From contig NC_092405.1 in the NCBI RefSeq assembly GCF_009017415.1, forward strand, positions 930,001-994,000: 64,000 nt of DNA. The letters run 5' to 3'. The translations under genes were made by a program, and so were the position numbers. Of this stretch, positions 1,658-59,882 are shown one piece after another (the first letter of the stretch is position 1; each line of letters begins with the position of its first letter). The notes beneath the pieces are model-generated. The model ran no database searches. It saw nothing but the letters and a program-made list of their open reading frames with translations, and had not been told where the DNA came from. The stretch is from Aspergillus flavus (Eukaryota; Ascomycota; Eurotiomycetes; Eurotiales; Aspergillaceae).

Positions 1658-2810
1658 ATGCAACTCAAACAACTCGTCCTCCCCGCCCTTGCCCTAAGCG
1701 GCTCGGCCTTAGGGTCTCCGACGCCCGCCAAAAGAGCCGATGAAAAGGTCGGCTATCTCTCTGTCTACTGGACAACGGACGACGAGAGTGTCTACTTTGC
1801 ATTAAGCGACAATGATGACCCGCTTGGATTTGCCGCAATTAATGGTGGTAAAGCCGTTGTTTCCCCAACTCTGGGTACCAAGGCTGTTCGCGACACGAGT
1901 ATTATTGCGGGACAGGGCAATAATGCTGGGAAATATTGGATTATTGGAACGGACCTCAATATCGACGATGTAAGTTTCATTACTGAATCTTGATCACTAG
2001 ACGTGCTGACCGACAGACAACTTGGGCCGATGCGGTCCGCACTGGCTCGCGTGCGATCTATGTGTGGGAGAGCTCAGACTTGGTCAACTGGAGCGAGAAT
2101 ACCCTGGTGACTGTTGAGGATGAGACTGCTGGAATGGTGTGGGCTCCAGATGCCATTTGGGATCCCGAACAAGGTTAGTATTCGTATTTTAACTGAAGAT
2201 CAATGGACGAAGCTAATTATCCTAGAACAATACTTCGTTCACTGGGCCTCAAAATTCGTAAGCAACCCCTACTGTCCCACCTGCTTTACCTATAACCCTA
2301 ACTAACATACCCCAGTACTCTCCCGACGACACAGACCACACAGGCAACGCAACCACAGGCAACGTCCTGCGCTACGCATACACCAGCGACTTTAAGACCT
2401 TCACCGAACCCAAAGACTATATCGTGGGAACTACCGACGTGATCGACCTTTGCATCCTGCAGCTCGATAGCAACACTCTTTTGCGGTCATATGTCAACAG
2501 CAGTAGTTCTGATGGTTTGCCTGTGGAGATCAGCACCAACGGCCTTCTCGGTGACTGGTCTGTTCTTGGCAATGTCGCCGACAGCACCAGCTATGAAGCT
2601 CCCTATTTCTTTGCCGATAATGCCGGTGGTGGTAAGGGATACATGATGGCCGATCTTGTCGGTAGCTCTCCCGGTATTTCTGGTTGGACGACGGACGATC
2701 TGAGCAAGGGTGTCTTTACTAAGGATACGTCTCATGATTTGACTTTTATGAGACATGATTCCGTGCTTGGTGTTACTCAAAGCCAGTATGATGCGCTGAA
2801 GGCGATGTAA
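1658..2810 (+). CDS. Secreted glycoside hydrolase family 43-like (arabinanase/arabinosidase type)
   Basis: Predicted extracellular five-bladed beta-propeller glycosidase for plant cell-wall arabinose- or xylose-containing polymers. Exons are 1658-1969, 2017-2173, 2226-2257 and 2316-2810, giving 331 residues. The first 19 or so residues form a signal peptide (LVLPALALSGSALG), followed by a possible Lys-Arg pro-site. GH43 hallmarks are VYWTTDDES in the first blade, VWAPDAIWD in the next, then DVIDLCI and TSYEAPYFF, where the Glu is the likely general acid. Length fits single-domain GH43 proteins. Exon 3 is only 32 bp but carries YFVHWASKF, typical of the fold. Substrate specificity within GH43 is not inferable. 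Start choice: this ATG gives the signal peptide and is preceded by a TATA box. Confidence 0.88.
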
Positions 2811-39476: not shown

Positions 39477-39578
39477 GCGGGGATAGCTCAGTTGGGAGAG
39501 CGTTAGACTGAAGTTTACTTCGATCAGATAGCCCTTATGGGTATCTAAAGGTCGCCGGTTCGATCCCGGCTCACCGCA
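39477..39578 (+). tRNA. tRNA-Phe (GAA) with intron
   Basis: The cloverleaf is complete: acceptor GCGGGGA/TCACCGC, D-arm TAGCTCAGTTGGGAGAGC, anticodon stem TTAGA/TCTAA, T-arm GCCGG-TTCGATC-CCGGC and discriminator A. The anticodon GAA is at 39510-39512. A 29-nt intron (39514-39542) sits at the canonical place after position 37, and its ACTTC can pair with the anticodon GAAGT. The acceptor stem has one G-A mismatch (39481/39573), where GCGGTGA would be expected, so the gene may be a slightly damaged copy. Confidence 0.88.
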
Positions 39579-55510: not shown

Positions 55511-56265
55511 ATGGTCCTCAAACTTTACGGATTCCCTCTTTCCACTTGTACTCGTCGAGTACGCACCGTCCTCGCAGAAAAGGGTGTCGAGGCCGAATTC
55601 CACTCAGTCGACCTGGCCAAGGGCGAACAAAAATCAGAGTCCTACCTGAATGACCTGCACCCATTCGGCAAAGTTCCCGTTCTCCAAGACACTGAGACGG
55701 GTGTTCAGATTTTCGGTTCGTAGTTCCTCACCAGGTATCTAATTCAGAACAACACGCTAAGATCAGCCCAATAGAAAGCAGAGCCATCAACCAGTACCTT
55801 TCCAGCAAGTACGCCGGGCAAGGAACCACACTCTCCCCTCCCGAGTCCGATCTGAAAGCCTGGGCTCTGTACCAACAGGCACGTATACACCCCGTCGCAT
55901 ACACGAATCACACTAACAGGATGCAGGCTCTCTCTATTGAACAATCCTACTTCGACCCGATCGTTTCCCAGATCGCTTTCGAGAAAGTCTTCAAAGTCCG
56001 CAAGGGTCTCGGTGAGACCGACGAGGCTCGCGTCCAGGTCCTCTTTTCGCAGCTCACGCCCGTCCTCGAGGGCTATGAGCGCGTTCTTTCCAGGCACAAG
56101 TACCTTGCGGGTGACCAGGTGACACTTGCGGATTTGGCCCATCTGCCGTATGGGGTGTTTGTGGAGCAGTTCGGTTTCGCTGATCTTCTGCCAAAGTATC
56201 CCCATGTTCAGAAGTGGTGGGAGGAGCTGAAGGCGAGGGAGAGCTGGAAGAAGGTTACTGCTTAG
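55511..56265 (+). CDS. Glutathione S-transferase
   Basis: Three exons (55511-55715, 55775-55878, 55927-56265) encode 215 residues. The thioredoxin-like N-terminal domain starts LKLYGFPLSTCTRRVRTVL and has FGKVPVLQD with the following ESRAINQYL (glutathione-binding Glu-Ser). The C-terminal helical domain has LAGDQVTLADLAHLPYGVF with the conserved Asp. The protein conjugates glutathione to electrophiles in the cytosol. The second intron (55879-55926, 48 nt) needs a GC donor (GCACGT) and CAG acceptor to give ALYQQALSIEQSYFDP; no GT site does so. Phi/Ure2-like fungal class. Confidence 0.9.
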
Positions 56266-58321: not shown

Positions 58322-58457
58322 GGCGAGATGGCCGAGCGGTCTAAGGCGGTTAGTACCACTATTATCACTTTCTAATCAAACAAATAACTAATAATCTCTC
58401 AGCTGGAGTAAGGTTCCAGTCTCGAAAGGGGCGTGGGTTCAAATCCCACTCTCGTCA
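58322..58457 (+). tRNA. tRNA-Leu (AAG) with non-canonical 54-nt insert
   Basis: Removing 58349-58402 leaves an 82-nt class II tRNA: acceptor GGCGAGA/TCTCGTC (one G-T pair), D-arm TGGCCGAGCGGTCTAAGGC, anticodon arm CTGGAGTAAGGTTCCAG with T33, anticodon AAG (58410-58412) and G37, variable arm TCTCGAAAGGGG, T-arm GTGGG-TTCAAAT-CCCAC and discriminator A. The insert lies between positions 26 and 27, not at the usual 37/38 site. It starts GTTAGT, has ACTAAT about 14 nt before its end, and ends CTCTCAG, just like a fungal spliceosomal intron. A run of T follows the gene, as expected for Pol III termination. G at position 32 is unusual for this tRNA. Confidence 0.85.
58349..58402 (+). other. Intron-like insert in tRNA-Leu
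   Basis: 54 nt, AT-rich, with GT...ACTAAT...CAG signals. It separates the D-arm from the anticodon arm. Confidence 0.7.
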
Positions 58458-59882
58458 ACATCTTTTTTGCTTTTTATTTCCTTTACTACTGTTCTTTACC
58501 TCTTCAGAGCTTGCCTGTACTGCTTCCTTTTCTCTCTTCCTTTCTATTCACCCTTTTTTGTATACCGCTCGAAATCCTTTCGTCCCTCCGCAGTTAAAGC
58601 CCGAATACTACCCGCCTCAGCCGGCGCCATAACCTACTACTAACAATGTGCACTCATCATCCTGCCCATCGCCTGTTCATGCTTGGCCTCAACGAAGTAG
58701 CTGATAGCATAATAATGCCTTGAATTGAAGCGGCATGCCTGGCTTCATAATTAGAACCGGTATAGAAGAATAGATGGTTTCCTCCCTACCTTTCCTTACA
58801 TTTATATTAAAGTTCCTTGATAGCTCACTAGTTTATTCCGGGTGGCCTACTTACTGGAGTCAAGCTGTGTACAAGTTGCACGCGATAAAGAAGATACGTA
58901 TCTTATGTAGGTGAGACTAGTATTCAACGTGTGCTTGATATGCTTATAGTATCCCCCGCCGTACACCATACCAGCAATTGGCCCATGGGACAGCCTCTAA
59001 ACTCCACCTACTTACGTATTTTGAACGGCTCGCCAGTCACACCTGCAACTGGAAATGATGCTAACTATAATACATAAATAAAAGGAGGGGGGGGGGGGGG
59101 AAATCACACAACAGCTGGCCGCGAATAAAGATTGGGCGGAGTGTCTTTGTATGGTTGCCCTTGGCACCTCTGCCTTAAGGCAGAGAACCTGCACCTTGGG
59201 CCTTTCAGTAGGCTGACTGTTGTGACGGGCAGGGATAAATATATTTTCGCGCAGGTTTTGTGGCTATAACATGTGGCTAAGGGTGCCGGTGTCTTGAATG
59301 ACTCTAATCGCCGACTGATTACTATTAAAGAGCGGATATTAAGGGTTATACACAGCTGGCTGATAGAATTCGCAGGTCGCGCAAGCCCTATTATGCACCA
59401 CTCCACATTAAGTCAGCGTCGCTGCGGCACCAACCCGATGTCAGCTGTAGTAATTAATAACTAGCCTGGTGGAGGAACTAGTGATTGCCTAGGTGAGGAT
59501 GGTGAGTGTGCAGTAGGCAGAGTGAGAAGCCATGGGAAAATTAGTTCAGCTCATGCAACTGTCGCCTAACAGGCGGGAGTACTTGAAAACTCAGGCGATT
59601 GGCTATGGGGAGAGAACTGCACGTTGAGTCCTCTGGCCTTTCGTATATGGCGCTCTGCTCGCCGCCTTATTGGAAACAGTCAGATGCATGAGCTGGATGC
59701 TTTGTTTTTCCGCGCAACATACCCCGGACTATCCATAAGATAGCCAATTAACTACCTACTTAATTATTCAACTAGTATTTGCCTTCTTGAGAATCAGTTA
59801 TTTCCCTCTTCTTCCCGCTCCACTGCTTTGATTAGTCGTATATAGCCTGAAACCTACCCACAATCCAAACTCTCGCTAAATC
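58458..59882. other. Intergenic region with poly-G tract
   Basis: It starts with the T-rich terminator of the tRNA. A run of 14 G lies at 59087-59100. No gene supported. Confidence 0.5.

Follow-up and report, generated by a model that had tools for sequence, protein, structure and literature searches.

The splicing of tRNAs and the splicing of mRNAs are treated as separate systems. In the available part of a 2026 review, tRNA splicing is placed among the processes that do not use the spliceosome, a classification that counts against the spliceosomal reading proposed below (PMC13149111), and human TSEN, according to the accessible text of one study, reaches the canonical 37/38 intron site by gripping the mature tRNA body together with the anticodon-intron pair (PMC10539383). 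Introns of the mRNA type are also found in small structured RNAs. U6, a Pol III transcript, is described in the available portion of one paper as carrying such an intron in fission yeast (PMC10484740), and according to a 2017 study of U3, in the part available, frequent introns were known in no small structured RNAs other than U3 and U6; those of fungal U3 have signals of this kind and average 92 nt (PMC5832005). A 2015 review, as far as its available text goes, knew of neither a translocatable intron nor a split tRNA among class II tRNAs, such as those for leucine and serine (PMC4390854).

The same isoacceptor, tRNA-Leu(AAG), is listed for A. niger, in the part of the source available, with two genes, 111 and 112 nt long, that have an intron of 27 nt (PMC6108506 Table 1). 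In the open-licence literature, represented mostly by titles and the openings of abstracts, we found no spliceosomal intron in a tRNA gene, and when six tRNA sequence strings were searched as literature text, a generic D-arm string alone occurred, in five papers. A tRNA family that depended on the spliceosome would cross the line between the two splicing systems.

A split tRNA-Leu(AAG) gene in nine copies

A class II tRNA-Leu(AAG) gene, in which an insert of 54 nt separates tRNA position 26 from position 27, lies at 58322-58457 on the forward strand of the window, the whole 64,000-nt stretch of Aspergillus flavus DNA that was analysed. The first-pass annotation had placed the gene and its insert here, and its coordinates proved right. 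With the exons joined, ARAGORN returns Leu(AAG), 82 nt long with paired arms, and draws the complete cloverleaf. Exon 1 (58322-58348, 27 nt), delimited by ARAGORN on the joined exons and by comparison of the nine copies described below, comprises the 5′ strand of the acceptor stem, the D arm and base 26, and includes the A box TGGCCGAGCGG (58329-58339), an internal Pol III promoter element whose string is common to all nine copies. Exon 2 (58403-58457, 55 nt), delimited by ARAGORN on the joined exons, comprises the anticodon arm (CTGGA-GTAAGGT-TCCAG, with the anticodon AAG at 58410-58412), the variable arm, the T arm, the 3′ strand of the acceptor stem and the discriminator A, and includes the B box GGTTCAAATCC (58436-58446). 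Both boxes were recognised by their resemblance to what we take to be the standard motifs. Beyond the gene lies a T-run resembling a Pol III terminator (58463-58468), located by comparison of the copies. The anticodon loop of the joined tRNA is uninterrupted, the insert being at 26/27 and not at 37/38. The register of the cut is ambiguous by one base, as a G precedes the cut and a G ends the insert, and the same tRNA results either way.

The Rfam tRNA model matches exactly 58322-58457 at 40.2 bits (cut-off 29) and accommodates the insert only by forcing it into a false anticodon arm. ARAGORN run without introns called no tRNA anywhere in the window; the tRNA-Phe(GAA) gene at 39477-39578 was likewise missed. 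In intron mode, the program read the window copy as it stands as Glu(CTC).

A search of the genome (37.7 Mb in 8 contigs) with the window gene and its flanks as query returned nine matches, distributed over contigs 1, 2, 4 (five copies), 6 and 8, and every one carries the insert at the identical place. The exons of the nine copies are identical except for a single T/C difference in the D loop of exon 1, with exon 2 the same throughout. An A box, a B box and a T-run terminator are present in each copy, the T-run, of at least five bases, starting 3-6 nt beyond the tRNA end. The 50 bases upstream are on average 55% alike in gapped alignment, against 52% for shuffled insert middles; as the flanks are thus hardly more alike than shuffled sequence, these are dispersed genes and not copies that brought their flanks along. 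Four of the genes lie within ~37 kb of contig 4 (988300-1025578), in both orientations, and the others are scattered. To judge by their sequences, all nine copies look functional.

The earlier suggestion that standard callers may miss the gene was borne out across the family. ARAGORN called none of the nine copies without introns and, in intron mode, named seven of them Glu(CTC) and two Arg(TCT), whereas on the joined exons it returned Leu(AAG) for all nine. Counts of tRNAs in such genomes may therefore miss the AAG leucine tRNA through this fault of the callers, and the Glu(CTC) and Arg(TCT) names may stand for the nine copies in public annotations. That the genes really encode Glu(CTC) or Arg(TCT) tRNAs with an intron in the anticodon loop, as the intron-mode calls would have it, is barely conceivable. 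In the window copy such a tRNA needs an intron at 32/33, has a weak anticodon stem and must hold perfect class II anticodon and variable arms within its variable region, whereas Glu and Arg tRNAs belong to class I; moreover, the call shifts between copies of one gene. We rejected this identity on the joined-exon result together with the copy dependence of the intron-mode calls.

An intact AAG gene elsewhere, named by the first-pass annotation as a possible source of all the mature tRNA, was sought by two genome searches, one with the joined tRNA and one with a class II pattern, and no AAG gene lacking the insert was found. The joined 82-nt query gave nine exon 1 and nine exon 2 matches, all broken at position 27; the nine candidates inspected closely did not include the Leu(CAG) genes, so this search is blind to diverged copies. 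The class II pattern, with AAG at its normal distance from the D arm, covers genes without introns and genes with a 37/38 intron and had no match in the genome, leaving a diverged AAG gene outside these patterns possible. An A-box pattern occurred at 27 places, which on reading by eye comprised the nine AAG genes, four Leu(CAG) genes, one Leu(TAA) gene and 13 others, mostly Ser or Ser-like; a B-box pattern occurred at 419 places. A genome search with the Rfam tRNA model, in which 63 of 1246 candidates were scored, is a sample and not a census. Among the 486 leucine codons of 11 genes predicted in the window, 207 are CTT or CTC, and the tRNA-Leu(AAG) family is apparently their only decoder.

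These results bear on the proposal that the copies are dead and that CUU and CUC are read by another tRNA. According to the available text of one review, a eukaryotic tRNA gene with a short insertion in its D or T arm is usually regarded as a pseudogene (PMC4090602). Against this stand the nine dispersed copies, with exons identical bar one D-loop T/C, upstream flanks that are unlike one another and terminators that are kept, as well as the failure of both searches to find another AAG gene for the many CTT and CTC codons of the window genes. We consider dead copies very unlikely, and a lone insertion into a single dead copy was ruled out by the presence of nine genes that all bear the insert. 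Three class II-like or Ser-like tRNA remnants in the same genome (L062, L064 and L052, at C6:3484205, C7:1348891 and C3:3613779), with arms that are odd or lost by eye, are probably pseudogenes.

Patterns for an insert at the 26/27 site, which cover that site and not tRNA inserts at large, pointed back to the same family. The class II version gave 15 matches (13 when read backwards), of which nine are the AAG genes and six are not tRNA-like by eye; among the 4 matches of the class I version (14 backwards), none is tRNA-like by eye. The possibility, also raised earlier, that the 54 nt recur as a mobile repeat received no support. The nine places that matched the gene plus flanks all belong to the tRNA-Leu(AAG) family, with no sign of a mobile intron or introner within the reach of a query in which the insert middle is diverged and of a search that skips very common words. 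Exact scans of viral and prokaryote collections gave 0 matches, as expected of fungal DNA.

Splice-like signals in the insert, compared with introns of the same genome

The insert of the window copy (58349-58402, GTTAGT...ACTAATAATCTCTCAG) is read here as a putative intron of the spliceosomal type. It opens with GTTAGT (58349-58354), which resembles a 5′ splice site and is invariant in the nine copies. Toward its end, ACTAAT (58387-58392) resembles a branch site and fits the fungal consensus RCTRAY, with the presumed branch A at 58391, and is followed by a pyrimidine stretch and a 3′ splice-site-like end, TCTCTCAG (58395-58402; TTTCTCAG in two of the nine copies). Across the family the inserts are 51-57 nt long, open with GTTAGTAC and close with ACTAATAAT(C/T)TCTCAG. 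GT-AG ends, ACTAAT and the CAG end are common to all nine, and in all nine the presumed branch A lies 11 nt before the last base of the insert. Conservation is confined almost wholly to these ends: variable alignment columns number 1 of 24 at the insert ends and 28 of 34 in the middle (Fisher p 2e-9, for columns of related sequences that are not fully independent).

The first-pass annotation had likened these signals to those of protein-gene introns, and the likeness holds. The pattern GTNNGT...RCTRAY...YAG, with the branch A 6-36 nt before the end, was matched by 9/9 inserts and by 1 in 1,800,000 mononucleotide shuffles of them; it is a published fungal consensus but was picked with the insert already known. 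RCTRAY and the 6-36 nt range derive from fungal U3 introns, for which the donor consensus is GTRWGT, fitted in full by 88 of 136 fungal U3 donors and missed by one mismatch in nearly all others (PMC5832005). The GTTAGT of all nine inserts departs from this donor consensus at one position, the T at +3. The AAT between the branch motif and the pyrimidine stretch is likewise invariant in the nine copies.

Protein-gene introns of the window supply a comparison set. The GH43-like gene at 1658-2810 has three introns, and its spliced protein was compared with five homologs. With two of these, from A. pseudonomiae (88%) and from A. bertholletiae (87%), it aligns gap-free over 331 residues; the remaining alignments contain between 2 and 15 gap positions. 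Its second intron (2174-2225, forward strand, 52 nt, GTTAGT...GCTAAT...TAG), supported by this homology, has the same donor as the tRNA insert, a like branch site and a like length. A glutathione transferase gene (55511-56265) has an intron that opens with GTTCGT and is supported by alignment to solved structures. Of two ab initio runs, one had predicted a single intron and the other seven, of which three were confirmed by homology; the glutathione transferase intron came from a lower-scoring model of this second run. In this small sample of four homology-supported introns, lengths are 47-59 nt, against 51-57 nt for the tRNA inserts, and two of the four have T at +3. The strict pattern is matched by two of the four, one of the others having the donor GTAAGC and one lacking RCTRAY; the tRNA inserts thus fit the consensus better than some real mRNA introns. 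A protein encoded in the window shares 91% identity with a protein of A. pseudotamarii; A. pseudotamarii and A. pseudonomiae both belong to section Flavi.

Counts of donor motifs in 224 kb depended on the control. Against reversed sequence there was no excess, whereas against a Markov control both GTTNGT (32 vs 11.5) and GTRNGT (39 vs 19) were in excess. About 13-14 places with GTTAGT were listed in the 224 kb, of which nine are the tRNA-Leu(AAG) genes themselves.

Introns of the ordinary tRNA type are present in the same genome and look different. The tRNA-Phe(GAA) gene of the window (39477-39578, forward strand), found with the Rfam tRNA model and with its anticodon read by eye, has a 29-nt intron at 37/38 (39514-39542) without GT-AG ends. 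Four Leu(CAG) genes (L046-L049) lie within ~7 kb of contig 3 (320-327 kb) and have introns of 31 or 33 nt at 37/38, which, unlike the AAG inserts, differ at a few sites along their whole length. The Phe intron and the three distinct Leu(CAG) introns begin with TT or TA and end with TT or GT, with no GT-AG among them.

Possible pairing within the insert and candidate splicing enzymes

In each of the nine copies GTTAGT (58349-58354) can form 6 bp with ACTAAT (58387-58392), and a consensus fold includes the helix; its pairs are invariant, with no compensating change and no covariation (one of the nine rows is five bases short). In the isolated insert the helix is weak, at -0.84 kcal/mol, with 47 of 200 shuffles as good, and it does not form when the full precursor of the window copy is folded at lowest energy. 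This complementarity may follow simply from what U1 and U2 require of the two motifs. The helix, as modelled, could also hide both signals or serve an enzyme that reads structure. We scored bulge-helix-bulge motifs as well: the AAG genes scored 8-10 in two registers, three ordinary introns scored 9, 10 and 11, and 500 shuffles of one copy had a mean of 7.0 and a 95th percentile of 10.

The main rival reading is that the tRNA splicing endonuclease (Sen), with tRNA ligase, removes the insert at an unusual site, guided by a structure such as the GTTAGT-ACTAAT hairpin or a relaxed bulge-helix-bulge. In every copy the 6-bp helix could bring together the two motifs that are conserved best, and the non-canonical tRNA introns of nucleomorphs and of the red alga C. 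merolae are credited to the endonuclease in the available text of a review (PMC4090602). Yet 26/27 is far from the 37/38 site served by human TSEN; no bulge-helix-bulge stands out, the scores of 8-10 falling within the shuffle range, though the ordinary introns score no clearly better; and this reading offers no explanation for the GT-AG ends, the branch motif or the distances between them. Endonuclease cleavage at 26/27 stays as a rival, albeit an unlikely one. The first-pass annotation had offered it beside a spliceosomal intron and a dead copy. The dead copy became very unlikely once nine dispersed genes with intact exons were found, and the spliceosomal option is the one that the sequence signals and their conservation favour.

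A further cleavage-and-ligation route, for instance by an Ire1-like nuclease acting with tRNA ligase, appears distinctly improbable. No loop of the kind that we take to be typical of Ire1 substrates is apparent at the cut sites of the insert, and such a route, too, would leave the GT-AG ends and the branch motif unexplained. Its precedent is the splicing of HAC1/XBP1 mRNA by Ire1 and a ligase without the spliceosome, as described in the available part of a review (PMC13149111).

A candidate spliceosomal intron among known systems

The nine genes are probably live Pol III tRNA-Leu(AAG) genes that each contain, at 26/27, a spliceosomal intron of the U2 type, 51-57 nt long. This reading is favoured because the insert has splice-type signals and because conservation tracks those signals. 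It is supported by the pattern fit in nine of nine copies, the constant 11-nt distance from branch to end and the length of 51-57 nt; by the mRNA introns of the window, which are similar in length and of which one has the same GTTAGT donor; and by the ordinary 37/38 introns of Leu(CAG) and Phe, which do without GT-AG ends. Further support comes from the functional look of the nine copies, none of which is without the insert, from the absence of the donor-branch helix from the lowest-energy precursor fold, and from the precedent of the intron in U6, a Pol III transcript, in fission yeast and of the fungal U3 introns. We infer from the sequences that the insert is spliced, that the spliceosome is the agent and that CUU/CUC decoding depends on this splicing.

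Three features of the insert count against the spliceosomal reading. The off-consensus T at +3 is invariant in nine copies, whereas variants should be tolerated if nothing but the spliceosome read the donor; the invariant AAT after the branch motif exceeds the needs of a splice signal; and the predicted 6-bp donor-branch helix leaves room for a structure-based enzyme.

According to the spliceosomal reading, Pol III, directed by the A and B boxes, would transcribe the tRNA-Leu(AAG) gene as far as the T-run. U1 would pair with GTTAGT and U2 with ACTAAT, and the spliceosome would cut at the GT and at the CAG 11 nt past the branch A, releasing a lariat. The 27-nt and 55-nt exons would then be joined, the tRNA would fold and its ends would be trimmed as usual, while the ordinary 37/38 introns of Leu(CAG) and Phe in the same genome would be left to the tRNA endonuclease. 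On balance it seems likely that the tRNA-Leu(AAG) family, the only CUU/CUC decoder found, is made only via the spliceosome, so that translation would hang on pre-mRNA splicing and two tRNA-splicing machineries would work beside each other on sister leucine tRNAs. If so, a Pol III transcript that is short and folded and has a first exon of 27 nt is within the reach of the spliceosome, and the decoding of two leucine codons is tied to splicing.

The nearest systems each share part of this arrangement. The introns of nucleomorphs and Cyanidioschyzon are, like the insert described here, eukaryotic tRNA inserts outside 37/38; they differ in that the endonuclease is credited with their removal, that a bulge-helix-bulge is present in C. 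merolae, that the Guillardia inserts are 3-24 nt long and that GT-AG or branch signals are not described in the available text (PMC4090602). The tRNA-Leu(AAG) of A. niger is the same isoacceptor from the same genus and bears an intron, of 27 nt in the available record (PMC6108506) as opposed to 51-57 nt here. An intron of 27 nt is taken to be too short for a spliceosomal mechanism and counts against the spliceosomal reading; set beside it, the insert may be a lineage novelty that arose by gain or replacement. The canonical tRNA introns of the same genome, those of Leu(CAG) and Phe, likewise interrupt nuclear tRNA genes, and Leu(CAG) has the same D-arm sequence, but they lie at 37/38 without GT-AG ends, whereas the Leu(AAG) insert, located at 26/27, has both GT-AG ends and a branch motif. 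The fungal U6 and U3 introns resemble the insert in their signals, with GT-AG ends (and RCTRAY in U3) in structured non-coding RNAs, of which U6 is a Pol III transcript. Here, by contrast, the host RNA is a tRNA, the inserts are 51-57 nt long against an average of 92 nt in U3, and the donor has T at +3.
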